Below are positions 4,518 to 25,406 of a stretch of 64,000 nucleotides of DNA, piece after piece (within the stretch, counting starts at the first letter, position 1; every line of letters begins with the position of its first letter). Both the position numbers and the translations under genes were made by a program. The stretch comes from Aquabacterium sp. (GTDB lineage: Bacteria; Pseudomonadota; Gammaproteobacteria; Burkholderiales; Burkholderiaceae_C): contig NZ_JAUSAR010000036.1 of assembly GCF_030652515.1 (NCBI RefSeq), forward strand, positions 1 through 64,000, read 5' to 3'. The notes under the pieces are model-generated. The model saw nothing but the letters and a program-made list of their open reading frames with translations, searched no databases and was not told the origin of the DNA.

Positions 4518-4593
<76 letters not shown>

Positions 4594-4637
4594 AACAAGC
4601 GTTGTTCAAGGGATGTCAGTGCAGTGCCAAGTTCAAA

Positions 4638-4713: not shown

Positions 4714-4774
4714 AGTTTGACGGCGCTTGGGTTGCGAAAGCAGCCAGAGTCGTTGGTAAGAGTTAGACCACTGC

Positions 4775-4851
4775 GGAGTGGTAGTTCAGTTGGTTAGAAT
4801 ACCGGCCTGTCACGCCGGGGGTCGCGGGTTCGAGTCCCGTCCACTCCGCCA
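4775..4851 (+). tRNA. tRNA-Asp (anticodon GTC)
   Basis: Acceptor GGAGTGG pairs with CCACTCC. Loop CTGTCAC sits on a CCGGC/GCCGG stem, with a T-arm around GGGTTCGAGTCCC and encoded CCA. It has 77 bases and is the last tRNA before the accessory block. Confidence 0.97.
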
Positions 4852-6080: not shown

Positions 6081-6992
6081 ATGTCCAGTCAACATATACA
6101 ACAACATCTGGTCCTTGGCGGCTCCGGCGCCCAAGGTTCGGCCATTGCTCAAGAACTGGTCACGCGGGGGCAGGCGGTCAAGGTGCTGGTCAGGTCCGAG
6201 GCGGGTCCCATTCCGGCAGGCACGCAGCGCGTTGTCGCGGATTTGGCTGACGGAGATGCCCTTCTGGAAGCATTCAAAGGTGTGAGCCACCTGACCGTTA
6301 CTTTGCCCCTGGTCTACGACCCCGAGGTGACAGACGCCTATGCCATGAATATCGCCAGGGCGGCGGCACGAAACAATGTTCGACGCATCGTCTTCAATGC
6401 CAACACACGGACGCCCCATGCGCGGTCCGACGTGCCGGCTTTCGATACACGCAATGGGGCAGACGCCATTTTGCGTGGCAGCGGCGTCGACATCGTCACG
6501 CTGAAGCCTTCCATTTACCTCGAAAACCTGTTGGCGCCGTCCTGCCTGGCGGGCATGAAAGAACATGGCCAACTGCACTATCCGCTGCCGGCGCAGACCC
6601 GGGTATCGTGGCTCTCGCTGGCCGACTTGGGGCGTGCCGTGGCCGCGGCTCATGCGTTGGACAAGACGCCTGCCGGGCCGGTGCTCATCGGAGCGAGCCC
6701 GGTGCAGGGCAGTGAGCTTGCCGCACAACTGTCCGAAGCGGTGGGTCGTCCGATCAGCTATGTGCCGCTTCCACCCGATGTGTTCGAGCAGTCGTTGGTC
6801 GGCTTCATCGGCGCCAAGGGTGCGGCCGGCGTGGCGGGGCTCTACCACTGGGCCTTCCGGCATCCCGACACCACTTTGTTCGCCACCGGTGATGTTGGCG
6901 AGCAGCTTGATCAATTCTTGTTGCCGCAGGTGCTGACGCCTCGGGCTTGGTCTCTTCGCCAGCCTTGGTCGTATGCCAAGCAGGCTGTTTGA
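6081..6992 (+). CDS. NmrA-like NAD(P)-binding oxidoreductase
   Basis: A 303-residue Rossmann protein of the atypical short-chain dehydrogenase/NmrA group. The nucleotide-binding glycine motif is GGSGAQG at residues 13-19, followed by VLVRSE and a YDPEVTDAY segment. NmrA-type proteins are either NAD(P)H-quinone or isoflavone-type reductases or redox-sensing regulators; the substrate cannot be told. It begins 57 bases before the ScyD/ScyE-family gene in the same direction, so it may be the first gene of the biosynthetic operon and the direct target of the divergent AraC regulator. Confidence 0.8.
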   Translation: MSSQHIQQHLVLGGSGAQGSAIAQELVTRGQAVKVLVRSEAGPIPAGTQRVVADLADGDALLEAFKGVSHLTVTLPLVYDPEVTDAYAMNIARAAARNNVRRIVFNANTRTPHARSDVPAFDTRNGADAILRGSGVDIVTLKPSIYLENLLAPSCLAGMKEHGQLHYPLPAQTRVSWLSLADLGRAVAAAHALDKTPAGPVLIGASPVQGSELAAQLSEAVGRPISYVPLPPDVFEQSLVGFIGAKGAAGVAGLYHWAFRHPDTTLFATGDVGEQLDQFLLPQVLTPRAWSLRQPWSYAKQAV

Positions 6993-7049
6993 TTTCCACG
7001 GGCGCACCAGCCTCATTCCAACCCTTCATCAAATTCAGCGAGGAAGCAC

Positions 7050-8228
7050 ATGAAACGATCACCCATGGTCTCTAGAGGCCGGTTCTCCCTGGCCGTCCTG
7101 ATGCTGGCCTTGCAAGCCGCGCTGCCGACTGCGGCATGGGCCCATGCCGGCCCGCACGGCGGGGTGGACACGTCACCCGAGCCGAGCGGCCCCAGTCCTT
7201 TCACGGTATTGGCCGAGGGGCTCTCGAATCCTCGGGGTATCGCCATCGATGAATCTTCCGGTTCACCTGTCGTTTATGTGGCGGAGGCTGGCAACGGTGG
7301 CAAGGGCGGCGTCTGCCTGACCAGTGCCAATGGCGACTATGACGATTGCTACGGTCCTTCCGGCGCGATCGCCCGCGTGGCGAACGGCGAGGTCGAGCGT
7401 GTGGTCAAGAACCTGCCGTCCATCGCGGGCCCCAATGGCGGCTTCGCCATTGGGCCTTCCCGCATCAGGCTGTTGGGCCCTTCGGTTCTTTTCACGGTTG
7501 CGAACTACGGAAACCCGGAACAGCGCGGGGTGCTCGCCTCGGCTGACAAGCGCTTCGGTCACGTGCTGTGGCATTCGCTGACGACACCGTCCCTCTCCTA
7601 TGACGTGGCGAACCTGTCAGCTTTCGAGGACGCTCAGAATCCCGATGGCGGCGAGCTTGAGAGCAATCCCTCGGGGCTTGCGTTCTCCCGCCACGGCCTG
7701 ATCGCCACCGATGCTGGTGCCAACGACGTCCTGAAGGTCCGGCCGAACGGCGCGGTCAGTGCGCGGTATGCCATTCCCGTCCGTCAGTTTCCGGCCCCCG
7801 ACAATCTCGGCCTGCCTCCTGGCGCTACCGTGCCATTGCAGTCCGTGCCGACAGCGGTGACAGTTGGCCCTGATGGTGCGCACTACGTGGCTGAGTTCAC
7901 CGGTTTTCCGTATCCGAAAGGCTCGGCACGGGTTTTCCGCTTTGGCGCTTTTGGCGCACCAACGGTGTTTGCCGACAATTTCTCGAACATCATCGATTTG
8001 GCTTTTGGCCCTGACGGCAGTCTTTATGTCCTGGAGCTGGCCCACAACGGTCTGATGTCGGGCGATGTGACAGGGGCTGTGACGCGGATACGTCCGAACG
8101 GGACGCGGACGACGGTGGCGTCGACCGGCTTGGCTTATCCCACCGCGATTGCGGTCGACCGCAGTGGGCGCATCTATGTGACCAACTACGGCACGCACGG
8201 CAGCAAGGCGCAACTCGTTCGTTTTTGA
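7050..8228 (+). CDS. ScyD/ScyE family secreted beta-propeller-like protein
   Basis: A 392-residue protein with a clear signal peptide (MKRSPMVSRGR, a hydrophobic core, cleavage near AWA-HAG at about residue 33). The mature part shows NHL-like units: GLSNPRGIAIDE, CYGPSGAIARVANG, ESNPSGLAF, TDAGANDVLKVRPNG, VPTAVTVGPDG, FTGFPYPKGSARVFRF and NIIDLAFGPDGSLYVLEL. This series is diagnostic of the ScyD/ScyE family found in cyanobacterial scytonemin clusters, where these proteins are thought to act outside the cytoplasm late in the pathway. The start has a good ribosome site (GAGGA). The ebo and dsbA genes downstream support the same context. Confidence 0.85.
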   Translation: MKRSPMVSRGRFSLAVLMLALQAALPTAAWAHAGPHGGVDTSPEPSGPSPFTVLAEGLSNPRGIAIDESSGSPVVYVAEAGNGGKGGVCLTSANGDYDDCYGPSGAIARVANGEVERVVKNLPSIAGPNGGFAIGPSRIRLLGPSVLFTVANYGNPEQRGVLASADKRFGHVLWHSLTTPSLSYDVANLSAFEDAQNPDGGELESNPSGLAFSRHGLIATDAGANDVLKVRPNGAVSARYAIPVRQFPAPDNLGLPPGATVPLQSVPTAVTVGPDGAHYVAEFTGFPYPKGSARVFRFGAFGAPTVFADNFSNIIDLAFGPDGSLYVLELAHNGLMSGDVTGAVTRIRPNGTRTTVASTGLAYPTAIAVDRSGRIYVTNYGTHGSKAQLVRF

Positions 8229-8261
8229 GCGACTGGCTCGCATCAGGGAATAAGGGGGCGC

Positions 8262-9254
8262 ATGGAGAAGCACACGGTGCCGGTGTCCGTGTACGTGGCG
8301 GTGGATGTGGCAAGGGCTTTGTCTTTCCTCTCCGACCTGAATCATCTGTCGATGTGGACGCTGGGCACCCGGGTGCACGAGCAGGTCGCGGTTGATACCT
8401 GGGTTGGCGAGGTCTCGGCCTCTGGCCAACGCATCTACCTTCGGGCGGTGACGCTTGCGCATCCCGAAGTGCCAATGCTGGAATGGCAGTGCGGCAAGAG
8501 CATGGACCACCTCTCGGTGGTCCATCGACTGTGCCTTCTGCCGGCTTTGGGAGGTGGAGTGCACGTGCACTGGATCAGCTTCAGGCGTCCTGATGTGGAG
8601 ACGGTGCTCGGCGGGCAAGGCTTCGATGCCATGGCGCATCAAGCCGAGTGCCTGCGCCTGAAGGCGGTGCTGGAACGGAACGCGGGACGGACCGCGCCTG
8701 CCATGGCGCCCGAGCAGGTGTTGGCCTGCTCGGTGTTCGTGGACGCGCCTGCCGCCACGCTCTCGGCCTATCTGGCCGACCTCGGGAGCGCGGCACAGTG
8801 GGCGGCTCAATGGGAACTGGGGCCGGAGACCGGATCCGCGAGCCGGTTGACTGGTGAATCGGGTACTTTGAAAGAAGGCCGTTTTCGCGATGCGTATGGC
8901 CGTGCTTTCACGGCCTCGTCCTCGTTGATCGACCATGCCGACCTGGGGCAGAGCGTGCTGATACGGACCGTGCACGACGTGCCAAACGCGGCAGATCCCT
9001 GGGCGCCCCCGTTCCTGCAGGTCTTTGCTGTCCTGCCTTGCGCCCATGTGTTGGGCATGCCGGCCGCGGATGGTTGTGTGCTGCACCGCATGGTGCCAAC
9101 GCCGTGGCGCTATGTCGAGCAGGCCGACAGTCTCGCGGCGATGCGCGGCGAAAGCCTTGGCATCAAGCGAAGGGTAGAGGGCTTGGCGGGACATCCTGAA
9201 CGTTTCGCGGATGGGCTCAGCTACACCCCAGCGATCGCAGCAGCGAGCGTCTGA
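8262..9254 (+). CDS. Tandem START/SRPBCC-like protein, possible cyclase or ligand binder
   Basis: A 330-residue cytoplasmic protein without signal peptide. It has an internal duplication: VPVSVYVAVDVARALSFLSD with SMWTLGTRV near residues 6-40 matches VLACSVFVDAPAATLSAYLAD with AAQWELG near 152-187. This is the usual opening of SRPBCC (Bet v 1/START, polyketide-cyclase-like) domains, so two such domains are inferred. It lies 33 bases after the ScyD/ScyE gene and before dsbA. The cyanobacterial cluster has a cyclase, ScyC, of similar length, but homology to it could not be established here. A role in closing or carrying an indolic intermediate is an inference. Confidence 0.6.
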   Translation: MEKHTVPVSVYVAVDVARALSFLSDLNHLSMWTLGTRVHEQVAVDTWVGEVSASGQRIYLRAVTLAHPEVPMLEWQCGKSMDHLSVVHRLCLLPALGGGVHVHWISFRRPDVETVLGGQGFDAMAHQAECLRLKAVLERNAGRTAPAMAPEQVLACSVFVDAPAATLSAYLADLGSAAQWAAQWELGPETGSASRLTGESGTLKEGRFRDAYGRAFTASSSLIDHADLGQSVLIRTVHDVPNAADPWAPPFLQVFAVLPCAHVLGMPAADGCVLHRMVPTPWRYVEQADSLAAMRGESLGIKRRVEGLAGHPERFADGLSYTPAIAAASV

Positions 9255-9313
9255 GACGGGTCACCGACCAGCGTTCGCTCTTTTTCTTTTTTCTTCTTTG
9301 GATCGAGGCTGTG

Positions 9314-9937
9314 ATGAATACAGAAGATGTTGTCGAAATCGAGGTCTTCTATGACCTGGTCTGCCCCTTCTGCCTGATCGGCAAGATGGAGTTCGATGCG
9401 GCGCTTGTGTCGTTGGGACCGGAGGTGCATGTGCGCTGGTCGCCCTTTGTGCTGGACCCTCAATTGCCTGAGGGGGGCTTGGCTTTTCAGGCTTATCACG
9501 CCATGAAATACGGTCCACGGGCGCGGCCCATGCAGCAGCATGTCGAACGCATCGGGCAGCGCATGGGCATTCCCTTCGATTTCCTGAAGTTGTCTCGCTA
9601 TCCGCAGACACTGAACGGCCATCGTGCAGTGCGCTTTGCCGCCGAGCATGGTCAGGCAGGCGACATGGTCGAGGTGCTGCTGCGTGCGTATTTCCTGGAA
9701 GACCAGGACATCGGCCGACCCGAAGTGCTGGCGGAGCTGGCGCAGAGCCGACTGGGCCTGCCTGGACAGGTGCTCGCACAGCGCCTGGCTTCCGATTGGC
9801 AGCGCAACGAGGTGCTGGCAGATCAACGCCGCGCGGTGCGGTTGGAGGTGCGCTCGGTGCCGTCCTATCGCCTCAACGGCCGTTACATCGAGCATACCGA
9901 CGATCTGGTGACCGTCCTGTCGGGCGCCTTGACATGA
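9314..9937 (+). CDS. DsbA/FrnE-like thiol oxidoreductase
   Basis: A 207-residue thioredoxin-fold protein of the DsbA family, FrnE-like branch. The active site is CPFC at residues 17-20 (YDLVCPFCLIGK), and a cis-proline segment VRSVPSYRLNG appears near the C-terminus. There is no signal peptide, so it is probably cytoplasmic like FrnE and the 2-hydroxychromene-2-carboxylate isomerases. ATG 9314 is preferred over GTG 9311 because GAGG at 9305-9308 is then five bases away. A DsbA-family gene also sits in the Nostoc scytonemin cluster. The stop overlaps eboD as ATGA. Confidence 0.82.
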   Translation: MNTEDVVEIEVFYDLVCPFCLIGKMEFDAALVSLGPEVHVRWSPFVLDPQLPEGGLAFQAYHAMKYGPRARPMQQHVERIGQRMGIPFDFLKLSRYPQTLNGHRAVRFAAEHGQAGDMVEVLLRAYFLEDQDIGRPEVLAELAQSRLGLPGQVLAQRLASDWQRNEVLADQRRAVRLEVRSVPSYRLNGRYIEHTDDLVTVLSGALT

Positions 9938-11202
9938 GCTTCGTCATGCCCCAACGCGCCTCCCCGTTAAGCGTGATCGTCAAGAGCGACCTGGAGGAGA
10001 CGCCGCGCGATATGTCCTCTCCGGCGCCCGACATGATCGAGCAGCGCTTCAGCGTACCTTTCCATTTCCCCGTCTATTTCACTGATGGCATGTTGCGCGA
10101 TCCGGGCAACTCAGTGCTCAGGCAAGCCATCAGCCGCAAGGAGCCCGGACGGCGCCACCGGTTCGCCGTCGTGATCGATAGCCAAGTGGCGCGTGCGGAT
10201 CCCGTCTTGGTGCGCGGCTTCCAGGCCTACGCTTGCCGACATGACGATGCCCTGGACCTGGTGGCCGCGCCACATCTGGTCAAGGGTGGTGAACTGATCA
10301 AGAACGACCACCTCACGGTACTGGGTCTGCAAAGCTGGCTGCACAAGCTTCGAATGGACCGCCACGCCTGTCTGGTCATTGTGGGCGGAGGCTCGGTGCT
10401 GGACATGGCGGGCTATGCGGCGGCCACCACGCACCGTGGCATCCGGGTGATCCGCGTGCCCACCACCGTGTTGGCGCAAAACGACTCGGGTGTCGGCGTC
10501 AAGACGGCGATCAACGCTTTTGGCGCCAAGAACTTCCTGGGAACCTTCACGCCGCCTTTCGCGGTCATCAACGATCATGACTTCATTGCCACGCTGCCCG
10601 ATCGGGACCGCATCGCCGGCATGGCGGAAGCGGTCAAGGTGGCTGCGATCCGCGATACCGTCTTCTTCGAATGGCTGGAGACCCATGTCGAGCGCTTGCG
10701 CAGTTTCGAGCCGCAGGCCATGCGTTGGATGATTCGCCGCTGTGCGGAACTGCACATGCACCACATCGGGCAGGGCGGCGATCCGTTTGAGTTCGGCAGC
10801 GCCAGGCCGTTGGATTTCGGCCATTGGGCCGCGCACAAGCTGGAGAATCTCAGCGGCTACACGCTCACGCATGGCGAGGCGGTGGCCATCGGTCTGGCGC
10901 TGGACACCCGTTATGCCGTCACGACGGGCATGTTGCCGGAGATTCAAGGCGAGCGGCTCTACCGTTTGCTGGAGCGGCTCGGGTTCAGGTTGTGGCACGA
11001 AGCGTTCGAGCAGCGGGATGCGCAAGGGCGGCGGCAGGTCATGGCCGGCCTTGCGGAATTCCAGGAGCACCTGGGCGGTGACCTGACGGTGACGATGCTG
11101 GATGCTATCGGTCGCGGACGGGAAATCCACGAGGTGCGCCAGCCACTCATGGACGGCTGCATCGATTGGTTGCGTGAGCGGGACCATGCGCGATGCGCCT
11201 GA
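9934..11202 (+). CDS. eboD: EboD, 3-dehydroquinate synthase-like protein
   Basis: A 422-residue member of the 3-dehydroquinate synthase (AroB) fold. The NAD-binding motif GGGSVLDMAGYAAATTHRG starts near residue 151, followed by VPTTVLAQNDSGVGVKTAIN and KNFLGTF. The presumed metal ligands are all present: E232 (MAEAVK), H297 (DFGHWAAHK) and H313 (THGEAVAIG). A true AroB usually has about 360 residues; the roughly 50-residue N-terminal extension and the neighbours point to EboD of the ebo cluster. The start overlaps the dsbA stop (ATGA) and the end overlaps eboE by ten bases, so the run is translationally coupled. Its real substrate is unknown. Confidence 0.88.
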   Translation: MSFVMPQRASPLSVIVKSDLEETPRDMSSPAPDMIEQRFSVPFHFPVYFTDGMLRDPGNSVLRQAISRKEPGRRHRFAVVIDSQVARADPVLVRGFQAYACRHDDALDLVAAPHLVKGGELIKNDHLTVLGLQSWLHKLRMDRHACLVIVGGGSVLDMAGYAAATTHRGIRVIRVPTTVLAQNDSGVGVKTAINAFGAKNFLGTFTPPFAVINDHDFIATLPDRDRIAGMAEAVKVAAIRDTVFFEWLETHVERLRSFEPQAMRWMIRRCAELHMHHIGQGGDPFEFGSARPLDFGHWAAHKLENLSGYTLTHGEAVAIGLALDTRYAVTTGMLPEIQGERLYRLLERLGFRLWHEAFEQRDAQGRRQVMAGLAEFQEHLGGDLTVTMLDAIGRGREIHEVRQPLMDGCIDWLRERDHARCA

Positions 11203-12422
11203 ACAGCCCAGCAGGGGATGCCTCAGGCCCGGTCCACCTGAGCTACTGCACCAATGTGCACCCCGGAGAAAGCTGGAACGACACCTTCGACGCTTTGCGC
11301 ACGCATCTGCCGGCGGTGAAGGCGCGTGTTGCCCCGACGCATCCCTTCGGCGTGGGGCTGCGCCTGTCGGCGCGGGCGGCCGATGAGTTGGCCCTGCCTG
11401 GTGCGTTGACGGCCTTTCAGGCCTTCCTGTCCGACCACGGACTCTATGTGTTCACCGTGAACGGCTTTCCCTATGGCGCCTTTCACCGGGACCGCGTGAA
11501 GGATCAGGTTTATCTGCCGGATTGGCGGACGCCTGAAAGGCTCAGGTATTCAGACCGGCTGGCCGATTTGCTGGCTGCCTTGCTGCCAGACGACGGCCTG
11601 GGCACGATCAGCACCGTGCCTGGAGGCTACCGTCCTCACCTGGTGCGTGAAGGCGAGGAAGGCTCGCGTGCCATGGCTGCCAACCTGCGGCAGCATGCAT
11701 TGCACTTGCACCGCATCGCGCAGGACACCGGGCGCCACATCGTGCTTGCGCTGGAGCCAGAGCCATGGTGTTTGCTGGAGACCAGCGTTGATGCGGTGCG
11801 GTTCTTCGAATCGCATTTGCTGCATCCCGACTCGGTAGCCGACATGGCTGCCCGGCTGGGCGCCGACAACTCGCTGGCGGAGCAGGTGCTTCGAGCTCAT
11901 CTCGGGGTTTGCCTTGATGCCTGTCACGCGGCGGTGGCTTTCGAAGATCCGCTGGCCTGTCTGGATTTGCTGGAAGGGGCCGGCATCCGCATCGCCAAGG
12001 TGCAACTCAGTGTGGGCCTGCATGCCGACAACGTTGGCGGGCTGCCCCTCGGTGCTTTCGATGAGTTGAACGATGCGGTCTACCTGCATCAGGTGGTCGA
12101 ACGGCCTTCTTCGGGCGAGGCGCTGCGGCGTTTCGACGATTTGCCGCAGGCGCTGGCTGCGCTGGACGGTGGCAGCCTCAGTTTGGCGCGAGATTGGCGC
12201 ATCCACTTCCACGTGCCCATCTGGTGCCGGGACTTGGGAGCCTTCACGACGACTCAGCCTTTCTTGCAGGCGCTGCTGGCACGCCATCGCGAACGGTCTA
12301 TTGCGCCGCATCTGGAAGTGGAAACGTATACGTGGGACGTGCTGCCGCCCCGCTGGCGCAGGGGCCCGCTGGACCAGGCCATCGCACGAGAACTCAACTG
12401 GGTGTTGGAGCAATTGTCATGA
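11193..12422 (+). CDS. eboE: EboE, TIM-barrel metabolite traffic protein
   Basis: A 409-residue protein resembling the xylose isomerase-like TIM-barrel superfamily. It has LSYCTNVHPGESW near the N-terminus, NGFPYGAFHRDRVKDQVYLP, LALEPEPWC in the middle and LGVCLDACHAAVAFEDP, with acidic and histidine residues in the places expected for metal ligands. CTNVHPGE, NGFPYG and the LEPEPW motif are characteristic of EboE. In Nostoc the ebo genes are needed to move scytonemin precursors to the periplasm; the biochemical action of EboE is not known. It overlaps eboD upstream and eboC downstream (ATGA). Confidence 0.88.
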   Translation: MRLNSPAGDASGPVHLSYCTNVHPGESWNDTFDALRTHLPAVKARVAPTHPFGVGLRLSARAADELALPGALTAFQAFLSDHGLYVFTVNGFPYGAFHRDRVKDQVYLPDWRTPERLRYSDRLADLLAALLPDDGLGTISTVPGGYRPHLVREGEEGSRAMAANLRQHALHLHRIAQDTGRHIVLALEPEPWCLLETSVDAVRFFESHLLHPDSVADMAARLGADNSLAEQVLRAHLGVCLDACHAAVAFEDPLACLDLLEGAGIRIAKVQLSVGLHADNVGGLPLGAFDELNDAVYLHQVVERPSSGEALRRFDDLPQALAALDGGSLSLARDWRIHFHVPIWCRDLGAFTTTQPFLQALLARHRERSIAPHLEVETYTWDVLPPRWRRGPLDQAIARELNWVLEQLS

Positions 12423-13279
12423 AACGCAATGGGTGGCGCGTGGCGCTGGAACTGGGTCGTGTGTCCAATCTGCCCACGGTATGGAGCAATGTGCTGGCGG
12501 GGATGGTGCTGTCTGGCCATGTGCACGAGTGGGGCATGGCGCTGCGGCTGATGGCTGCCTTGTCGCTGATCTACGTGGCCGGCATGTACCTCAACGATGC
12601 GTTCGACCGCGACATTGACAGGCGTGAGCGGCCTGAACGGCCGATTCCTTCTGGCAGGGTGTCGGCGCGCGTGGTCTTCGCGGCCGGCTATGGCCTGCTC
12701 GTGTCAGGCCTGCTGATGCTGGCGCCGATGGGCTGGCGCGCCTTCGCCTCCGGGGCGCTGCTGGCGGCGGTGGTCGTCTATTACAACTACGATCACAAAG
12801 CTAATCGCTTCAGCCCGCTGGTGATGGGCCTGTGCCGCATGCTCACCTACATCACGAGTGCGCTTGCGGCCACGGGCGGTGCCGTGCCGGAGGCTGTCTG
12901 GCTCGGGGCGATGGTGCTGCTGGCCTATTTGATGGGCTTGACCTACGTGGCCAAGCACGAGCAGCCTGGCAAAGTGATGCATGTCTGGCCGCTCCTGGGA
13001 CTGGCCTGTCCCATGCTGGCCGTGCTCGTGTTCTCGCCCATGGGCGTGCAGACGGCTCCGTGCCTGCTGGCGTTCGGGCTGTGGACCGGCCACTGCCTGC
13101 GCATGGTCTTCTCGCGCCAGCGCCGCAATATGAGGCATGCCGTGGGCGGTTTCATCGCCGGCATTTCGTTGGCCGATGCATTGGCCATATCTGTTCTGGG
13201 CCTGTCGCCCGCCGTGGCAACCGCCACGGCCGCTTTTCTATTGACGCTGGTGTTGCAACGGAAGATTGCCGGAACTTGA
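12419..13279 (+). CDS. eboC: EboC, UbiA-family prenyltransferase
   Basis: A 286-residue integral membrane protein with about eight hydrophobic helices. The first aspartate-rich motif is NDAFDRDID (residues 59-67), and the second conserved loop is YNYDHKANRFSP, as in UbiA-type aromatic prenyltransferases. ATG 12419 overlaps the eboE stop and starts directly before the amphipathic RVALELGRVSNLPTVWSN, the normal UbiA N-terminus; in-frame extension upstream is rejected. Within the ebo cluster this is EboC. The acceptor and the polyprenyl donor are unknown. It closes the first transcription block, followed by a 290-base AT-rich gap. Confidence 0.9.
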   Translation: MKRNGWRVALELGRVSNLPTVWSNVLAGMVLSGHVHEWGMALRLMAALSLIYVAGMYLNDAFDRDIDRRERPERPIPSGRVSARVVFAAGYGLLVSGLLMLAPMGWRAFASGALLAAVVVYYNYDHKANRFSPLVMGLCRMLTYITSALAATGGAVPEAVWLGAMVLLAYLMGLTYVAKHEQPGKVMHVWPLLGLACPMLAVLVFSPMGVQTAPCLLAFGLWTGHCLRMVFSRQRRNMRHAVGGFIAGISLADALAISVLGLSPAVATATAAFLLTLVLQRKIAGT

Positions 13280-13569
13280 CGGGTTACGTTATTCATTTGC
13301 CAGGCGATATTGCAGCATCGATGTCAATTCGCGATTACTGTTTGTTTCTAAATTGTTGCCATTTCCATCAATCGTTGTTTTGGTCATGATTTTGTCATTT
13401 TAAAAAACAAAGGGCCTGTGCACGAATTTTAAAGAAATTGAGTCGGTTCTTTATTCACAATAATCGACGGCTCTTTAAAATGGCCTGAAAATATTCAATC
13501 AGGGAGGACCTTTCAGGTGCATGGGCCTGTGGAGGGTGCCTGATATATCAATATTTAATGGGGGTAATC
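13280..13569 (+). promoter_or_regulatory. AT-rich intergenic region with a candidate promoter for the prnB-like operon
   Basis: This 290-base gap is the longest in the cluster and is far richer in A and T than either side. A candidate promoter is TTGAGT (13438-13443) with AATAAT (13459-13464), spacer 15 bases, slightly short. A purine-rich AGGGAGGA run at about 13501-13508 precedes a short ATG frame that looks non-coding. GGGGG before ATG 13570 could be the ribosome site of the next gene. No terminator hairpin is evident after eboC. Confidence 0.4.
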
Positions 13570-14760
13570 ATGATTTTACTGGATGCCGGCTGCTTTCAAG
13601 AAAAAAGCTATTTCAACGTGGAGGCCATTCGTGCGCAGGACCCTTTGAATGCAGATTGGCAGCTGGGCGCGCTGCCGGTCATCAATCGCAACAAGGACAC
13701 CGACGAACTCATCCGTCTGCTGCAATATCTGGCGCGGCAGACCAAAGATGTCGATATCGACACGCCCGAAAAGGCATTTGCCGCCATGCGAGACATTGGC
13801 ATCGTCCTGGGCTCGCTCAAGCGGCAGGGTGTGGAGCCCGTGCAGGCGGTGCCGGAGGTGGAGCAGCCCCTTGTAGAGCTGGGGGCGGCGACGAACATGA
13901 TCCCGCGCGACACGGTCCATCACTACACCTCGTGGAACCCCGTCGGCGCGCGGCGGCGCACTTACACGGGTGAGCCGCAGGAGATCTGGCTGCAAGATGC
14001 GGTCGTGCGCGTGTTCCCCAGCCTGAGCGCTTCGCTGGCCATCAGCGATGTGCTGAGTACCATGTCCCCGCATGATGTGCGATTCGGTCCCACGGTGGGC
14101 ATGCTGCATGAGTCAGGCAGGACGATGGTCGAGGCCATCGACTCGGTGACGGAGCGGGTATCCCCCGTCTTTTTTGCACAGGTGCTGCGGCCTTATTTCG
14201 AGGACGTCATCGTGCGCGGCGAGCGCTATCTGGGTCCGGCGGCAGCGCAGGCACCCCTGTGGCTGGTGGACCTTTGCGTGTGGGCCTCGGACCGCAATCA
14301 GGCTGACTACAAGACCTTCCTGGTGGAGTCGGTCCACTACAGCCTGCCTTCCTGGCGGGCGTTCTACCAGCGCCACTGCAACGATGTCTCGCTGGTCAGC
14401 AAGGTGACTGAGGCGCTGGATGCCTGCGCCGGTGAGCCGGACGGCAATCTGGTGCGCAGCGCGACGAGCCTGACGGAGCTCATGACTTTGCTGAAGGTGT
14501 TCCGTGGGCGGCACATCGGCATCGCGCGCAAGGCCTATGCCGAGGAGGTGGCACTCTATGCGCACGGCAGCGGCGGGGCGCCGGTGGAGTTGTTGCGCCA
14601 TATCCTGGACCTGACCCGTGAGAATGAGCACCTCATGCGCGAGCGGGCCAGCGGCATGCGCCGTGACCAAGCAGCGGTGCAGGCGTCAACGCCACCGACC
14701 GCGCCTGCGCAGGATGGCGAGCGCCGAGAGGAGGGCGTCGCCTACGGGGAGGCAGCATGA
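13570..14760 (+). CDS. PrnB-like heme enzyme (indoleamine/tryptophan dioxygenase superfamily)
   Basis: A 396-residue homologue of PrnB, the pyrrolnitrin enzyme that rearranges 7-chlorotryptophan to an aminophenylpyrrole. Family marks: LPVINRNKDTDELIRLLQYL, FAAMRDIGIVLGSLKRQG, NMIPRDTVHHYTSWNP, VLRPYFEDVIVRGERYLGP and GRHIGIARKAYAEEV. H315 in GRHIG is the expected proximal heme ligand and falls almost where the PrnB ligand lies (about 313). ATG 13570 is preferred over 13558 because GGGGG precedes it. The C-terminal tail (about 30 residues, PTAPAQDGERREEG) is low-complexity. It overlaps the next gene as ATGA. No tryptophan halogenase is nearby, so the substrate is probably unchlorinated tryptophan or a derivative; this is an inference. 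Confidence 0.85.
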   Translation: MILLDAGCFQEKSYFNVEAIRAQDPLNADWQLGALPVINRNKDTDELIRLLQYLARQTKDVDIDTPEKAFAAMRDIGIVLGSLKRQGVEPVQAVPEVEQPLVELGAATNMIPRDTVHHYTSWNPVGARRRTYTGEPQEIWLQDAVVRVFPSLSASLAISDVLSTMSPHDVRFGPTVGMLHESGRTMVEAIDSVTERVSPVFFAQVLRPYFEDVIVRGERYLGPAAAQAPLWLVDLCVWASDRNQADYKTFLVESVHYSLPSWRAFYQRHCNDVSLVSKVTEALDACAGEPDGNLVRSATSLTELMTLLKVFRGRHIGIARKAYAEEVALYAHGSGGAPVELLRHILDLTRENEHLMRERASGMRRDQAAVQASTPPTAPAQDGERREEGVAYGEAA

Positions 14761-16819: not shown

Positions 16820-16901
16820 GCCAGGACGAATCACCGATCGCACCGCTTCACACTCTCACGCCCCTGATGGGCGCATTCCAACCCTTCGGAGACACCGCCT
16901 C

Positions 16902-17786
16902 ATGAATATGTTCGATCCTCATGTCCACATGACGTCCCGCACGACCGACGACTACCGCGCCATGAATGCCGCTGGCGTGACGGTGGTCGTGGAACCCGCG
17001 TTCTGGATGGGTCAGCCGCGAACCCATGTGGGTACCTTTGAGGACTACTTCCTGTCCCTGCTTGGATGGGAGCGCTTCAGGGCGAGCCAGTTCGGTATTC
17101 GCCACTACTGCACGCTGGGCCTCAACCCCAAGGAGACGAACAATCCCGACGTGGCCGATGGCGTCATTGCCTTACTCGATCACTACCTGGAGAAGGACGG
17201 CGTGGTGGCCGTCGGCGAGATCGGCTTCGACGACGAGACGGCGGCGGAAGAAAAGTACTTTCTGCTGCAGCTGGAACTGGCGATCAAGCACGAGCTGCCG
17301 GTGCTGGTCCACACCCCTCACCGCGACAAGAAGGCGGGCACCTTGCGCAGCCTGGCCATGATTCGCGAGAGCGGCATCCGAGACGAACTGGTGCTCATCG
17401 ACCACAACACCGAGGAGACGCTGCCCCTGGTCTTGGACACCGGCTGCTGGGCCGGCCACTCCATCTATCCAGAGACCAAGATGGACGAGGCCCGCATGGT
17501 GGCGCTGGTCAAGCAATACGGTGCGGATCGCATCATCATCAACAGCGCCGCCGACTGGGGTGTGAGCGATCCACTCAAGGTGCCCAAGACCGCGCAGGCC
17601 ATGCTGGATGCTGGCATCGCCGAGGCCTTGATCCGGACCATCGTGTGGGACAACCCCCTGGCCTTCTTTGCGCAAAGCGGTCGCCTCGACCAGGAAGAAG
17701 CGGTGGCCGATGTGCGCATCGACCAGCGCCAGGCTTTCGAAGGCAATTCCGTGCTGCGCGGCCAGACCCCTGTGGTCCACGACTGA
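16902..17786 (+). CDS. eboB: EboB, TatD-family metal-dependent hydrolase
   Basis: A 294-residue amidohydrolase-fold protein. The N-terminus MNMFDPHVHMTSRTTDDYRA contains the HxH metal pair (H7, H9). VGEIGFDDETA holds the metal-bridging glutamate, VLVHTPHR and LIDHNTEETL give further histidines, and INSAADWG holds the last aspartate. The TatD family includes DNases, but this branch with SRTTDDY is EboB. ATG 16902 has GGAG ahead of it and begins at the conserved N-terminus; the frame is open upstream into eboA and that extension is rejected. It follows eboA after 82 bases and precedes eboF by 13. Confidence 0.88.
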   Translation: MNMFDPHVHMTSRTTDDYRAMNAAGVTVVVEPAFWMGQPRTHVGTFEDYFLSLLGWERFRASQFGIRHYCTLGLNPKETNNPDVADGVIALLDHYLEKDGVVAVGEIGFDDETAAEEKYFLLQLELAIKHELPVLVHTPHRDKKAGTLRSLAMIRESGIRDELVLIDHNTEETLPLVLDTGCWAGHSIYPETKMDEARMVALVKQYGADRIIINSAADWGVSDPLKVPKTAQAMLDAGIAEALIRTIVWDNPLAFFAQSGRLDQEEAVADVRIDQRQAFEGNSVLRGQTPVVHD

Positions 17787-17799
17787 AAAGGACCGCAGC

Positions 17800-19170
17800 G
17801 TGCAAAAGACCGTCGTGCTCAACGTCGTCGGCATGACGCCGGCCCTGCTGAGCCATGCGCCGCATCTGCGTGCCCTGGCCGAGCGTGGGGGGGTGAGGCC
17901 AGTCAGCACCATCACCCCTGCGGTGACGTGCTCGGTGCAGGCCACCTTCCTCACCGGACGCATGCCCAGCAGCCATGGCTGCGTGGCCAACGGCTGGTAC
18001 TTCAGAGACTTGGCGGAGCCCATGTTCTGGCGCCAGAACAATGGCCTGATCCAAGGCGACAAGATCTGGCATGAGGCCCGCCGCCGTGATCCTGACTTCA
18101 CCTGTGCCAAGCTTTTCTGGTGGTACAACATGCATGCCGATGTGGACTGGAGCGTGACCCCGAGGCCCATCTACAAGGCCGACGGCAGCAAGGTGCCGGA
18201 TTTCTATGCTTGGCCGTCCGAGTTGCATGGCGAGTTGCGCGCCAAGCTGGGTGATTTCCCGCTTTTCCGCTTCTGGGGGCCGACGGCGGACATCGTCTCC
18301 AGCCGCTGGATCGCGGAATGCGCCATGCATGTCTACGACACGCGCAAGCCCACGCTCACGCTGGTCTACCTGCCGCATCTGGACTACAACCTGCAAAGGC
18401 TGGGGCCCGACCATCCCGGCATTGCTGCCGACGTGGCCGCCATCGACGATGTCTGCGGCAAGATCATCCGCAAGGTGGAGGCTGATGGCGCCTGCGTGAT
18501 TGTTCTGTCCGAGTACGGCATCACACCGGTCAAAGGCGATGTGGCCATCAACCGTGCGTTGCGGCGCGCGGGCTGGCTGGTCACGCGCGATGAGCTTGGC
18601 GAGGACAAGCTCGACCCGGGCGCATCGGATGCCTTCGCGCTGGTGGACCACCAGGTGGCGCATGTCTACGTTCGGCGTCCCGAGTTGGTGCCCAAGGTCA
18701 AGGCCCTGCTGGAACAACTCGATGGCGTCGAGCAGGTGCTTGACGAGGATGGCAAACGGGCGGTGGGGCTGGACCACGAGCGGTCCGGCGAGCTGGTGGC
18801 CATCAGCCAAAGCGACCGGTGGTTCAGCTATTACTTCTGGCTGGATGATGCGCGTGCGCCGGACTTCGCGCGCACGGTCGACATCCACCGCAAGCCAGGC
18901 TATGACCCGGTCGAACTGTTCATCGACCCGGCCATCCGCCTGCCGAAGCTGACGCTGGGCTGGAAGCTGCTGCGCAAGCTTTGCGGCATGCGGACCTTGA
19001 TGGACGTCATCCCGCTGGATCCCTCGCTGGTGAAGGGATCGCACGGTCGTCCCACCGATGATCCGGCCCTGGGCCCGCTGATGATCAGTTCACACGCAGA
19101 CCTGCTGCCCAAGGGAGCGGTGGACGCGCCCGACGTCCACGACCTGATCTTGGACCACCTGTTCACCTAG
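17800..19170 (+). CDS. eboF: EboF, alkaline phosphatase-superfamily phosphodiesterase-like protein
   Basis: A 456-residue protein of the nucleotide pyrophosphatase/phosphodiesterase branch of the alkaline phosphatase superfamily. It starts at GTG 17800 (AAGGA eight bases upstream) and opens with KTVVLNVVGMTPALL. The nucleophile region is TPAVTCSVQATFLTGRMPSSHG, and YLPHLDYNLQRLGPDHPG supplies acidic and histidine ligands. Where classical members have SDHGM, this protein has SEYGI, so one metal site may differ. No signal peptide is visible. It is the last ebo gene, 52 bases before trpE. Confidence 0.85.
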   Translation: MQKTVVLNVVGMTPALLSHAPHLRALAERGGVRPVSTITPAVTCSVQATFLTGRMPSSHGCVANGWYFRDLAEPMFWRQNNGLIQGDKIWHEARRRDPDFTCAKLFWWYNMHADVDWSVTPRPIYKADGSKVPDFYAWPSELHGELRAKLGDFPLFRFWGPTADIVSSRWIAECAMHVYDTRKPTLTLVYLPHLDYNLQRLGPDHPGIAADVAAIDDVCGKIIRKVEADGACVIVLSEYGITPVKGDVAINRALRRAGWLVTRDELGEDKLDPGASDAFALVDHQVAHVYVRRPELVPKVKALLEQLDGVEQVLDEDGKRAVGLDHERSGELVAISQSDRWFSYYFWLDDARAPDFARTVDIHRKPGYDPVELFIDPAIRLPKLTLGWKLLRKLCGMRTLMDVIPLDPSLVKGSHGRPTDDPALGPLMISSHADLLPKGAVDAPDVHDLILDHLFT

Positions 19171-19222
19171 GCACGCCATGCCGCCCAGGTACGCCCCCCA
19201 TACACAGAGAGGACAAGCCGAG

Positions 19223-20731
19223 ATGCAACGTCAAGAGTTCGAACAGTTCGCTGCCATGGGCTACAACCGCATCCCCATGGAGCGGGAACTGGTGGCCGAC
19301 TTCGAAACCGCGCTGAGCGCCTATGCCAAGCTGGCGCAGGGTCGTCATTCCTATCTGCTGGAGTCCGTGCCGGGCCGGGCGGAGAACTGGGGGCGATACT
19401 CGATCATGGGGTTGCCCAGCGACGTGGTCATCAAGGTGCGCGGCAGTCGCATCCAGGTCGAGGACCACGGTCTGACCGTGGAAGACGTGGAGGCAGACGA
19501 CCCGCTGGCCTGGCTTCAGGACTACGCCACACGTTTTTGTGTTGCCCCTTCCAGCAGCGCCATGCCCTTCATTGGCGGATTGGTGGGCTATTTCGGCTAC
19601 GACACGGTCGCCTACATCGAGCCAGGGATGGTGCGCGCGCCCCGGGCAGATCCGCTTGATGTGCCCGATATCCTGCTGATGGTGTCCGAGGAGGTGGTCG
19701 TGTTTGACAACCTGCGCGGCAAGCTGTCGCTGGTGGTGCTGGCCAATCCCGCGCGGCCGGGCGCCTACGAGCACGCGCAGGGCAGGCTGGCCAGCTTGGA
19801 GGCAGCCTTTCGCGAGCCGATCAGGACGCCCATGCGTGGCGGCTTCGTGCCCTCGTCCGCTGGGTACGCCCGCGCGCTGGAGCAGGAGGCAACCGCCTGG
19901 TTCGACAAGGCCGACTTCGAGGCGGCCGTGCGGCGCATTCAGCGCTACATCGTCGAAGGCGATGTGATGCAGGTCGTGCTTTCGCAGCGCATGTCCATGC
20001 CGATCGAGGCGCCGCCACTGGACATCTACCGCGCCCTGCGCAGCCTCAATCCCTCGCCTTACATGTTCTACATGGACCTGGGCGAGTGCCACGTCGTTGG
20101 CTCGTCGCCAGAAATCCTGGTGCGCCTGCGCGACGGCGACGTCACCGTCAGGCCCATCGCCGGCACGCGGCGCCGGGGAGGATCAGCGGCGGAGGACCAG
20201 GTGCTGGAGCAGGATCTGCTTGCCGACCCCAAGGAGCGCGCCGAGCACATCATGCTGATCGACCTCGGGCGCAATGATGTGGGGCGCATCAGCCAGGCCG
20301 GCAGCGTGAAGGTGACGGAGCGCATGGTGGTCGAGCACTATTCACACGTGATGCACATGGTGTCGAACGTGACGGGGCGCCTCAAGCCCGACACCGGCGC
20401 CATGGACGTGCTGCGCGCCACCTTCCCGGCTGGCACGGTCAGTGGCGCGCCCAAGGTGAGGGCGATGGAGATCATCCACGAAGTGGAGCCCGTCAAGCGG
20501 GGCATTTATGCGGGCGCCATCGGCTACCTCTCTTGGTCGGGGGCCTTGGACACCGCGATCGCTATCCGCACCGCGGTCGTCAAGGACGGCGTGCTGCACA
20601 TCCAGGCTGGCGCGGGCATCGTCGCCGATTCGGTGCCGGAGCTCGAATGGGAAGAAACCATGAACAAGGCCCGGGCCATGTTCAAGGCCATCGCGCAGGC
20701 CGAAGGTGGCCTGCAGCGTGCCGCGGCCTGA
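19223..20731 (+). CDS. trpE: Anthranilate synthase component I
   Basis: A 502-residue enzyme that converts chorismate to anthranilate together with TrpG. ATG 19223 has AGAGGA upstream and is preferred over ATG 19178. The N-terminal LLES motif ([10 protein letters not shown]), part of the tryptophan feedback site, is intact, so the enzyme is probably still inhibited by tryptophan. The chorismate-binding domain has [50 protein letters not shown] and [16 protein letters not shown]. It follows the ebo genes in the same direction with 52 bases between, which suggests shared transcription and local tryptophan supply. Confidence 0.95.
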
Positions 20732-20780
20732 TGAAGGCCCGGCACGTCCTTCCTCAAGCAATCAACCAATGGAGCACGTC

Positions 20781-21395
20781 ATGCTGTTGATGATCGACAA
20801 CTACGATTCATTCACCTACAACCTCGTGCAGTATTTCAGCGAGCTTGGGGCGCATGTGCAGGTTTACCGCAATGACCAGATCACCGTGGACGACATCCGG
20901 TGCCTGGCGCCCAGCCACATCGTGATCTCGCCCGGGCCCTGCAGCCCCAGCGAGGCAGGCGTGTCGTTGGAGGTGGCCCGCTACTTCGCGGGGCGCGTGC
21001 CCATCCTGGGCGTGTGCCTCGGGCACCAGGCCCTGGGGCAAGCCTTCGGTGGCCGCGTCGTGAAGGCGCGTCGGCTCATGCACGGCAAGACGTCCATGAT
21101 CCAACACAAGGGGGGCGGTGTCTTTCGTGGCCTGCCGACGCCGTTCGAGGCCATTCGCTACCACTCGCTGGCCATCGATCGCGACAGCTTGCCCAGTTGC
21201 CTGGAAGTGACGGCCTGGACGGAAAACCCCGACGGTAGCTTCGACGACATCATGGGCCTGCGGCACCGCACCTTGCCCATCGAGGGGGTGCAGTTCCATC
21301 CTGAATCCATCCTGTCTGAACACGGCCATGCGCTGCTGGGCAACTTTCTGCGTTCTCATGTGCTGATCGAGCGCGAACTGGCGCAAGCGTGCTGA
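20781..21395 (+). CDS. trpG: Anthranilate synthase component II (glutamine amidotransferase)
   Basis: A 204-residue class I glutamine amidotransferase that delivers ammonia to TrpE. The catalytic triad is visible: C79 ([10 protein letters not shown]), H173 and E175 (VQFHPES). ATG 20781 gives the standard N-terminus [19 protein letters not shown]. Such subunits often double as PabA for folate synthesis; the position directly after trpE favours TrpG. Confidence 0.95.
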
Positions 21396-21397
21396 CC

Positions 21398-22435
21398 ATG
21401 GAAGCCGTCATGGATGTGAAGGCTGCCATCCAGTCCGTGGTGGCGCGCCAGGACCTGCCGCCTCAGGCGATGCAGCAGGTGATGAAGCAGGTGCTGGCGG
21501 GCGAGGCCTCACCCGCCCAGATTGGCGCGCTGCTGGTTGGGCTGCGCATGAAGGGCGAATCTGTCGGCGAGTTGACGGCCGCCGCCCAGGTCATGCGCGC
21601 CTTTGCGCGCAGCCTGCATGTCGAGCATCCACACCTGGTGGACACCTGCGGCACGGGCGGCGATGGCGCGCACATCTTCAACGTGTCGACGGCCTGTGCC
21701 TTCGTTGCCGCGGCCGGTGGTGCCGTCGTGGCCAAGCATGGAAATCGCTCGGTCTCCAGCCGCAGCGGCAGCGCCGATTTGCTGGAGGCCGCGGGCGCCC
21801 GTCTGGACCTGCCCGAAGCCTGTCTGCACGCCTGTCTGCGGGAACTGGGCATTGCCTTTCTGTTCGCGCCCGCTCACCATCCTGCCGTCGCCCATGTGGC
21901 CGGGCCGCGCCGCGAATTGGGCGGGCGCAGCCTGTTCAATCTGCTGGGCCCACTGAGCAACCCGGCAGGCGCGCGTCGCCAGGTGATCGGCGTGTTCGAC
22001 GCCGAATGGCTGGTGCCCATGGCCGAGGTGCTGCGCGACCTGGGCAGCGAACATGTGATGGTGGTCCATGCTGAGGATGGCCTTGACGAGATCAGCGTGG
22101 CAGCGGCCACGGACGTGGTCGAACTTCACGATGGGCGCATCCGCCACTACCGCATCGTGCCGGAAGCCTTCGGCATGGCACGGGCTTCGCTGTCCACGCT
22201 GCTGGTCGACGGCGCACCTGACAGCCTGCGCATCGTTCGCGAGGTCTTCGCGAACCGGCCGGGGCCGGCGCGGGACATCGTGGTCCTCAATGCCGGAGCC
22301 GCGCTGTACGTTGCCGGCATCGAGCCCACCCTGCAAGCAGGCGTGCTCCGTGCCAACCGGCTCGTGGCCGATGGCAAAGCGGGCGAGCGTTTCGATGCCT
22401 TCATCCGATTCACTCAACGAGTCACCACATCATGA
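21398..22435 (+). CDS. trpD: Anthranilate phosphoribosyltransferase
   Basis: Transfers phosphoribose from PRPP to anthranilate. It has about 345 residues. The glycine-rich PRPP site is [19 protein letters not shown], followed by [19 protein letters not shown] and [19 protein letters not shown]. The start is uncertain: GTG 21389 overlaps trpG by seven bases, ATG 21398 follows it by two, and ATG 21410 is also possible. It overlaps trpC as ATGA. Confidence 0.95.
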
Positions 22436-23274
22436 TCCCCACGACCCATCCTTTGCTGTCCCTGCCCAATGATCTGCTTCAGACGATCTTGAAGACCAAG
22501 TTCGAGGAAGTCGCCGAGCACAGCAACCAGGTGAGCGGCGAGGCGCTGCGCAGACAGGCCCTGTCGATGCGGCCTGCCCGCGATTTCCTGGCGGCCATCC
22601 GCGCGCGGATCGATGCCGGCCAAGCCGCGGTCATTGCCGAGATCAAGCGAGCTTCGCCCAGCCGTGGTGTGCTGCGCGATCCATTCGATCCGGCTGCGAT
22701 CGCCACTAGCTACGCTCAGCATGGCGCGGCCTGTCTGTCCGTGCTGACGGACGAGCGCTACTTCTCGGGCAGTGCGGACTACCTGCGGCAGGCTAGGGCC
22801 GCGTGCGCGTTGCCCGTCTTGCGCAAAGACTTCATCGTCGATGCCTACCAACTCTACGAGGCCAGGGTGATGGAGGCGGACTGCGTGCTCCTCATCGCGG
22901 CGGCCTTGTCCGATGCCCGGATGGCCGCGCTGGCCGACGAGGCGCAGGAACTGGGCATGGCCGTCTTGCTGGAGGTGCACAACATGCGCGAACTGGAGAG
23001 GGCGCTGCGCATTCCCACGCCCCTCATCGGCATCAACAACCGCAACCTGAACACCTTCGAGATCCGCCTGGACACGACCCTGCAATTGCGCAAGTCCGTG
23101 CCGCCGGACCGCATCCTCGTGACAGAAAGCGGTGTCAGCACGCCCAGTTATGTGGCCATGATGCGCTCACAGGGCGTGCACGGCTTCCTCGTCGGCGAGG
23201 CCTTCATGAAGGCCCCGGACCCTGGCGCGGCGTTGACGCAGCTGTTCGGGGATATGGCTGCCTTGGCTCATTGA
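22432..23274 (+). CDS. trpC: Indole-3-glycerol phosphate synthase
   Basis: A 280-residue TIM-barrel enzyme that closes the indole ring. [16 protein letters not shown] holds the catalytic lysine, followed by [53 protein letters not shown] and VTESGVST. It is a single-function protein, not fused to TrpF, and trpF is not in the window. It ends 25 bases from the convergent trpA stop. Confidence 0.96.
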
Positions 23275-23299
23275 CGACCCGAGGCCTGAGGGTGGGACA

Positions 23300-24103
23300 C
23301 TAGCGTGGCGCGTCCAGCGCCAGGCGGACCTGGCCGATTAGCCGCCGGGCCACTTCCACCGCTTCCTCCAAGGGCACCGCGGCCATCTCCTGGATCACCT
23401 TGCTGCCGATGATCACGGCGTCCGCCACGGACGCCACCGCGCGCGCCGTCTCGGCATCCCGGATCCCGAAGCCGACGCCCATGGGCAGCTTGACGTGCTG
23501 GCGGATCAGCGCCAGGCGCTGCGCCACCTCGTGCGTGTCGATGTGCGAGGCGCCCGTCACCCCCTTGAGCGAGACGTAGTAGCTGAAGCCACGGCCCATG
23601 CGGCCGACCTCCTCCATGCGCTTCTCGGTCGAGGTGGGGGCCAGCAGGAAGATGAGGTCCATGCCCGCGCGTTCCAGCGCCGTGCTCAAGGCCTGTGCTT
23701 CCTGGGGCGGGTAATCGACCACGATGAGCCCGTCGACACCTGCTTCGGCGGCCGCTGAGGTGAATCGATCGACGCCCATGTGTTCGACAGGATTGGCATA
23801 GCCCATCAGCACCACCGGTGTGACCGCGTCGGTCTGCCGGAAAAGGCGGACCATGTCCAGCACGTCCGTCAGCCCAACGTCGAAGGCCAGGGCGCGTTCG
23901 CAGGCCCGCTGAATCACAGGGCCTTCAGCCATGGGGTCGGAAAAGGGCACGCCCAATTCGAGCACGTCAGCGCCCGCTTCGACGAGCGCATGCATCAATG
24001 GCACGGTGATGGAAGGGTGCGGGTCCCCTGCGGTGATGAAGGGGATCAGTCCCGTGCGGTGATGCGCCCGCAGCGTGTCGAAGATCTTGGTAATTCTGGA
24101 CAT
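23300..24103 (-). CDS. trpA: Tryptophan synthase alpha subunit
   Basis: A 267-residue TIM-barrel lyase that splits indole-3-glycerol phosphate and passes indole to TrpB. ATG 24103 gives [20 protein letters not shown]. The catalytic glutamate and aspartate lie in [35 protein letters not shown] and [17 protein letters not shown] are family motifs, and [15 protein letters not shown] is the phosphate site. It starts four bases after trpB, is coupled to it, and converges on trpC. Confidence 0.96.
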
Positions 24104-24107
24104 GGCT

Positions 24108-25406
24108 TCAATCCTTCGCGTTGTTGGAGTGGGACTGCGATGGCTGCGGCCGAGTCTGCGCCAGCCGTTCGGAGACGGTGTGCATGTCCTTGTCTCCTCG
24201 CCCTGACAGATTGGCCAGGACGATGTGTTGGGGTGACAGCGTGCTCGCGAGCTTGGCGGCATGGGCGAGCGCGTGGCTCGATTCCAGCGCGGGGATGATG
24301 CCTTCGAGTCGGCAGCAGTCGTGGAAAGCCTGTAGCGCCTCGTCGTCGGTGACCGTGACATAGCTCGCACGGCCAGTGTCCTTGAGCCAGGCGTGCTCGG
24401 GTCCCACGCCCGGGTAGTCCAGCCCGGCCGAGACCGAATGCGTGTCCATGATCTGCCCCTTCGGATCTTGCAGCAGGTAGGTGCGATTGCCATGCAGCAC
24501 CCCGGACGAGCCCGCCGTCAGCGAGGCTGCGTGTCGGCCGCTGTCGATGCCTTCGCCGCCAGCTTCCACGCCCACCAAGGTCACCGACGCGTCGCCGATA
24601 TACGGATAGAAAATGCCCATGGCGTTGGAGCCTCCGCCCACACAGGCCACCACGTGGTCGGGCTGGCGGCCAGCCATCTCGGGCATCTGTGTCAGGCATT
24701 CCTGCCCGATGACGGACTGGAAGTCCCTCACCATCATGGGATAGGGGTGAGGGCCCGCCACCGTGCCGATGATGTAGAAAGTGTCCTCCACATTCGTGAC
24801 CCAGTCGCGCATGGCCTCGTTGAGCGCGTCCTTCAAGGTGCGTGAGCCCGATTCGACAGGCACGACTTGTGCACCCAGCAACTGCATGCGGATGACGTTC
24901 TGAGCTTGGCGGCGCACGTCATCCGCGCCCATGTAGACCACGCACTTCAGGCCAAAACGCGCGCAGATCGTCGCGGTGGCAACCCCATGCTGCCCCGCGC
25001 CCGTCTCGGCGATGATGCGCGTCTTGCCCATCTGCTTGGCCAGCAGCGCTTGGCCGATCACGTTGTTGATCTTGTGCGCCCCTGTGTGGTTGAGGTCCTC
25101 GCGCTTGAAGTAGATGCGGGCACCGCCCATCTGATCTGACCAGCGCCGGGCGTGGTAAACCGGCGAAGGGCGGCCGACGAAGTAGCGCAATTCGTCGCGC
25201 AATTCATTCAGAAAGCCGGGGTCGTCGCGCAGGTGGTCATAGGCCTGCTGGAGTTCGTCCAGCGCGTGGATCAGCGTCTCGGATACGAAGATTCCGCCGT
25301 AAGGCCCGAAGTGGCCCAGGGTGTCGGGCTGGTGGTAACTGTGGTTGCGGTGCAAGGCGTTCGCGGCATGCGCGGCGCCCAGTCCTGGAGTGGCCAGTTC
25401 TGTCAT
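24108..25406 (-). CDS. trpB: Tryptophan synthase beta subunit
   Basis: A 432-residue PLP enzyme that condenses indole with serine. The PLP lysine is K112 in [17 protein letters not shown], followed by [15 protein letters not shown]. The phosphate cup is [15 protein letters not shown]. The residue count and LNHTGAHK mark the standard TrpB1 type. It is the first gene of trpBA on the minus strand, the reverse of trpEGDC. In most Burkholderiales trpF precedes trpB; here it does not. Confidence 0.96.

Follow-up and report, generated by a model that had tools for sequence, protein, structure and literature searches.

An inserted ebo gene island in Aquabacterium with scytonemin-type genes and a PrnB-like/PhzS-like pair, a candidate tryptophan-derived pathway

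What might a bacterium make with a locus that joins the ebo genes and relatives of scytonemin proteins to a PrnB-like heme protein, a PhzS-like flavin monooxygenase and trp genes of its own? The question is raised by a 64,000-nucleotide stretch of DNA (the window) from Aquabacterium sp., positions 1 to 64,000 of contig NZ_JAUSAR010000036.1 (assembly GCF_030652515.1), in which a 19-gene island of ∼20.8 kb, with an AraC-type regulator at one end and trpB at the other, is flanked by a tRNA-Ala/Glu/Asp block and an EamA gene. On its gene content we place the island with the scytonemin/ebo kind, as a variant, and do not file it as a scytonemin cluster. We give an even chance to the reading that it encodes a compartmentalized pathway of the scytonemin type, in which the entry has been changed and the product comes from tryptophan alone; the product would probably be an undescribed tryptophan-derived compound.

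A first-pass annotation, made from the sequence alone, had named a ScyD/ScyE protein, a DsbA-like protein, six ebo genes, a PrnB-like protein, a PhzS-like protein, trpEGDC and trpBA. Family models and sequence identity confirmed all of these, in order and in place. The annotation had set the extent at 6081–25406; the genes do lie there, but the unit is wider, as an AraC-family regulator with a cupin domain (5021–5986, minus strand), divergent from the cluster and 91% identical in Aquabacterium sp. CECT 9606, is part of the same inserted segment. (Genes are on the plus strand unless marked otherwise.) The annotation knew of no described product for the combination, and in the open-licence papers found, prnB and ebo are nowhere named together, ScyC, ebo and scytonemin-like do not occur together for Proteobacteria, and none of the papers that bring together scytonemin, ebo genes and biosynthetic gene clusters names Aquabacterium.

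Gene content compared with scytonemin clusters

Like the gene cluster for scytonemin, a cyanobacterial sunscreen pigment, the island has a ScyD/ScyE family protein, a ScyC-like protein (a divergent one here), a FrnE-like protein with the DsbA fold, additional copies of trpE, C, A, B and D, and the ebo genes; the cluster of Nostoc is reported to hold trpE, C, A, B, D, frnE and aroB (PMC2726228). The ScyD/ScyE family β-propeller protein (7050–8228) scores 307 bits against NF033206 (cut-off 80) and has an N-terminal signal-peptide-like stretch, judged by eye only. In scytonemin synthesis scyE is reported to be essential and scyD and scyF not (PMC4870267). The DsbA-fold protein (9311–9937) matches PF01323, and its closest solved protein is FrnE. 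All six genes eboA–F are present: the 3-dehydroquinate-synthase-like eboD (9934–11202; NF004852, 545 bits, cut-off 333), eboE (11193–12422; NF035939, 445 bits, cut-off 250), the UbiA-like eboC (12416–13279), which at 119 bits stays under the NF035940 cut-off of 250, and eboA (16061–16819; NF035938, 134 bits, cut-off 50). The TatD-like hydrolase eboB (16899–17786) and the phosphodiesterase eboF (17785–19170) have no specific model and were named by fold, place and 42–66% identity to their counterparts in other ebo loci. In cyanobacteria the ebo genes are reported to be required for the scytonemin monomer to reach the periplasm (PMC6282210).

The annotation had described the scytonemin core enzymes ScyA and ScyB as missing; it had overlooked a relative of ScyC. 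Between the ScyD/ScyE gene and the DsbA-fold gene lies a full-length, divergent ScyC-like cyclase/decarboxylase family gene (8262–9254), of which residues 2–323 align with positions 1–312 of NF035924 (E 3.4e-39; 135 bits versus an equivalog cut-off of 400). Pfam finds a polyketide-cyclase-type domain in this protein and nothing more. By tblastn it aligns with the ScyC part of a protein in a genome of the same GTDB family (G1196), at 27% identity over 324 columns (E 2.7e-24). Of 369 genomes sampled from the class, one matched the ScyC model at E ≤1e-15, the window's own, and of 299 sampled from the family, two matched it at E ≤1e-8, the window's own and G1196, with CECT 9606 possibly outside both samples; a search of plasmids with the ScyC-like protein gave no match. 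A 2022 study lists 71 cyanobacterial ScyC proteins and one of Methylocaldum marinum, the remaining BLAST hits having E >1 (PMC9796282). Since a ScyC-like gene is present, the locus stands nearer to scytonemin than had first been stated.

ScyA is absent from the island, and the genome has no match at ScyA level (the best reaches 231 bits against a cut-off of 1020, and such matches also occur in 14 of 14 control genomes). For ScyB, a search restricted to the 19 island proteins gave no match to the Glu/Leu dehydrogenase family, and TyrA is not among these proteins either. A true scytonemin cluster was rejected on this account. The island differs from the cyanobacterial cluster further in its AraC-type regulator, in the distance of its ScyC relative and in having the PrnB-like and PhzS-like genes instead of ScyA, ScyB and TyrA, so that the earlier view of the pair as standing in for the scytonemin entry agrees with the gene content.

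The G1196 locus is an observation in its own right. Its ScyC domain (399 bits) runs on into a cytochrome P450 domain (contig C81 near 76–79 kb, L085–L087), and next to the gene are a thiamine enzyme related to ScyA (705 bits, cut-off 1020) and a PEP-CTERM-like protein. It shares a ScyC-family protein and the GTDB family with the island and differs in the ScyA-related enzyme, in the P450 domain and in that the genome has no EboE; it looks like a variant of the scytonemin core outside cyanobacteria.

The PrnB-like and PhzS-like pair

The pair lies between eboC and eboA. The PrnB-like heme protein (13558–14760) scores 118 bits against PF08933 (cut-off 27). Among solved chains PrnB of P. fluorescens (PDB 2v7i, 180 bits) and a flavobacterial PrnB (9dfg, 149 bits) come closest to it, followed by two distant chains at 24 bits. 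His317, Tyr325 and Ser336 align with His313, Tyr321 and Ser332 of P. fluorescens PrnB, of which we take His313 to be the axial ligand and Tyr321 a contact residue. The relation to PrnB and the retention of the aligned heme and substrate residues place the protein in the PrnB subfamily. Tyr121 aligns with Tyr104 of the flavobacterial enzyme, which is reported to narrow its pocket (PMC11791213), where the P. fluorescens protein has Val117. In a sample of the phylum, five of 398 genomes carry PF08933 proteins of 547–698 bits (L075–L079) versus 118 for the window, and the model thus seems to be centred on another group than the island protein; there is also a weak order-level match in one genome (G349, E 9.8e-10).

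The flavin monooxygenase (14757–16064) scores 462 bits against NF005720 (cut-off 400). Its best solved relatives, 2rgj and 3c96 (E 3e-72), are titled ‘Flavin-containing monooxygenase’, and we take both to be PhzS. A Trp_halogenase match covers residues 5–63 only, which is the start of the FAD-binding region. As in pyrrolnitrin prnABCD, there is a PrnB-like protein in the island, and it retains the aligned active-site residues; the island differs in that none of its 19 genes encodes a PrnA/PrnC halogenase or PrnD and in that its monooxygenase is PhzS-like, and the classical pyrrolnitrin pathway was rejected on these grounds. Because the island has no halogenase, the likely substrate of the PrnB-like protein is unchlorinated tryptophan. 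PrnB may convert tryptophan to aminophenylpyrrole (PMC11434214, citing Otoya 2019).

The same proteins bear on an alternative modelled on EDB, the grazer-deterring cluster of Pseudomonas fluorescens NZI7. The island could turn tryptophan into simple indole compounds with the ring kept, the PrnB-like protein acting as an oxygenase that forms no pyrrole. EDB has the full ebo set (PMC6282210), and according to a review E. coli expressing it made indole compounds with a moderate repellent effect on Caenorhabditis elegans (PMC9655573). Papers that cite the EDB work thus offer an earlier example of a non-cyanobacterial ebo cluster tied to tryptophan-derived compounds, and the connection is not a new idea. 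The reported EDB products keep the indole. The island protein groups with the pyrrolnitrin PrnBs (180 and 149 bits), and neither IDO nor TDO is among the solved matches listed for it. We consider an EDB-like product unlikely.

Adjacent orthologues of the pair are also found in actinomycetes, on a plasmid of Streptomyces sp. NBC_01717 (PrnB 43–44%, monooxygenase 47% identity) and in Nocardia brevicatena (43% and 47%). In both, a DoxX-like gene precedes the pair and a ketosynthase gene comes after it (Nocardia L010, 9529–15147; Streptomyces L004, 14452–20432); farther downstream are a KASIII-like gene in Nocardia and a phosphopantetheine-binding protein in Streptomyces. This order is possibly a separate, undescribed pathway. 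A scan of genome contigs with two short peptide patterns found two loci only and is no census. Among plasmids, PrnB-like proteins occur in six records, of which three were viewed: the Streptomyces pair, one adjoining an acetyltransferase gene and one accompanied by tryptophan halogenases, as is the case in pyrrolnitrin. As it is present without ebo in Nocardia and Streptomyces, the pair behaves like a movable two-gene module.

A movable pair leads to a second alternative, in which the island holds two independent pathways: the pair makes a small product of its own, and the ScyC-like protein, ScyD/E and ebo serve another substrate. A plasmid of Mycetohabitans endofungorum carries eboD-E-C-A-B-F, the order of the window minus the pair; this points to an insertion of the two genes between eboC and eboA. 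A 278-bp gap (13280–13557) lies ahead of prnB. The gap holds one promoter-like match (13454–13481), the total of such matches being at chance level. Against separate pathways, the pair lies inside the run of ebo genes, and stops overlap the next starts (14757/14760 between prnB and the monooxygenase, 16061/16064 between the monooxygenase and eboA), which makes cotranscription with eboABF and trpEGDC probable. Nor was any further enzyme seen in the island that uses tryptophan or provides a precursor for a second substrate. Two pathways side by side are, in our judgement, improbable.

The inserted segment and the second set of trp genes

The island is a single insertion unit, as the same island occupies the same site in CECT 9606 and the site is without it in four of four other Aquabacterium genomes. 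The segment has approximate borders at 4897 and 25720 (no strand). On its left is a chromosomal tRNA-Ala, tRNA-Glu and tRNA-Asp block (4518–4851), kept in all four island-free relatives examined, and on its right, beyond trpB, the EamA gene at 25.8 kb serves as the flank marker. The DNA of CECT 9606 aligns with the window over 5061–25719, with a short gap near 13.3 kb, and continues through both flanks; the complete order of the island genes is conserved. In G001, G012, G026 and G062 the tRNA block is followed by the EamA homologue after 643, 558, 589 and 4046 bp, respectively. The regions compared in these four genomes were picked beside their trpB, and only the trpAB portion of the island matches in them, corresponding to trpBA genes near the site. 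The ∼4 kb in G062 is different DNA (L104, 11077–15122); the site after the tRNA block is thus variable in the genus and is a possible hot spot for insertions. An integrase was not seen among the genes of the island, no direct repeats of at least 12 bases were found between the junctions, and Rfam reports three tRNAs and nothing else. Promoter matches (four versus 3.0 expected) and terminator matches (11 versus 12.2 expected) are not in excess.

Within the genus, a genome-wide search found EboE in two of 42 genomes, and the PrnB-like protein occurs in two of 61 relatives, in each case the window's own genome and CECT 9606. The annotation had held that the proposal would fall if the genes never clustered elsewhere; the cluster does recur, though in one other genome only. 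In this one species pair all 19 island genes are intact, with dN/dS values of 0.05–0.26 that indicate purifying selection, and a degenerate cluster was ruled out.

The inserted segment includes both trp blocks: trpE (19178–20731), trpG (20772–21395), trpD (21398–22435) and trpC (22432–23274), followed on the minus strand by trpA (23300–24106) and trpB (24108–25406). The start of trpE is eight bases from the end of eboF. Each of the two island carriers has a second trpE, G, D and C set on a different contig, 51–61% identical to that of the island, giving two copies of TrpE per carrier compared with one in each of eight other Aquabacterium. TrpB is present in three copies in the window's genome, two in CECT 9606 and a single copy in each of the other eight, and the trpB of the island is thus an extra copy. 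Extra trp genes are a feature of scytonemin clusters. That the island genes serve ordinary tryptophan synthesis and stand beside ebo by accident could be argued from their order, since the separate set is likewise arranged trpE-G-D-C; the existence of that set, the copy numbers (eight of eight others with one TrpE and one TrpB), the eight-base distance and the place of both blocks in the inserted segment make such an accident very improbable, and we rejected it.

The third TrpB of the window's genome (C229, 40850–42094; 69% identical) may be foreign, since contamination of the assembly (5.42 Mb in 229 contigs) is estimated at 8.99%. The window begins at the first base of its contig.

A proposed pathway and the evidence for and against it

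In the scytonemin-type reading, the dedicated TrpEGDC and TrpBA would supply tryptophan, and the PrnB-like heme enzyme would rearrange it in its unchlorinated form. The simplest guess for the monomer is one of the aminophenylpyrrole type, since PrnB reportedly forms aminophenylpyrrole from tryptophan. The flavin monooxygenase would then hydroxylate or decarboxylate this monomer and the ScyC-like protein cyclize or steer it; the Ebo proteins would carry it across the inner membrane, and the ScyE-like protein may act in a late oxidative, possibly dimerizing, step outside the cytoplasm. As there is no TyrA or ScyA to bring in a hydroxyphenyl unit, the product would derive from tryptophan alone.

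Several results weigh against this reading. Isolated PrnB is reported to have given no product from 7-chlorotryptophan under the conditions tried (PMC11791213). The 135 bits of the ScyC-like protein, compared with the cut-off of 400, mean that it may catalyse a different reaction. The FrnE-like protein has no signal peptide, as judged by eye, and is probably not periplasmic; it therefore offers no evidence for the envelope. The annotation was right about the family of this gene, but its argument for a product exported or matured in the envelope loses one leg, and a DsbA acting as a periplasmic thiol oxidase was rejected in favour of the FrnE-like assignment among solved proteins. The stretches examined around the actinomycete pairs (31 and 21 kb) contain no match to ebo, ScyC, ScyD/E or trp genes, which differs from the island and argues that the pair does not require ebo, ScyC or ScyD/E. 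EboE was found in 20 of 399 Burkholderiales genomes, including that of the window, and the 19 other loci all lack a match to PrnB, the monooxygenase, ScyC, ScyD/E, DsbA or Trp proteins in stretches of 5.5–20 kb (in two of the 19, EboE was the sole match); ebo as such is thus not tied to tryptophan. Finally, two carriers of the island are known and no more.

Other ebo loci extend the comparison. Three Streptomyces plasmids (L070, L071 and L072) carry ebo together with a ScyD/ScyE family protein, which fits a role for ebo and ScyD/E with aromatic monomers of several kinds. On the plasmid of Streptomyces AMCC400023 type II polyketide genes are close to ebo, and on this plasmid and that of NBC_00019 an inositol-3-phosphate synthase takes the expected position of EboD.

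A bolder version of the scytonemin-type reading, which we offer as speculation and think rather doubtful, is that a movable pair of PrnB and flavin monooxygenase has been plugged into a scytonemin-type chassis for export and maturation. The ScyC-like protein would close a ring on a ring-opened tryptophan monomer of the aminophenylpyrrole type, ScyE and ebo would build a new alkaloid outside the cell, possibly a dimer, that absorbs light or acts as a deterrent and comes from tryptophan only, and in actinomycetes the pair would feed a ketosynthase line.

The function of the ebo genes is a hypothesis that rests mainly on one cyanobacterial pigment. If the reading is true, an ebo/ScyE set working on another monomer derived from tryptophan would provide a test of whether these genes form a general system for small-molecule translocation and maturation, in a host related to easily handled bacteria. 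PrnB, the activity of which is hard to reconstitute, would gain a candidate natural partner monooxygenase, and the island is a lead to an undescribed compound.

The remaining gene of the island, at 6081–6992, encodes an NmrA-like NAD(P)-binding protein to which a PADLOC scan assigned no family; it matches PF05368 and shows weak similarity to EasG.

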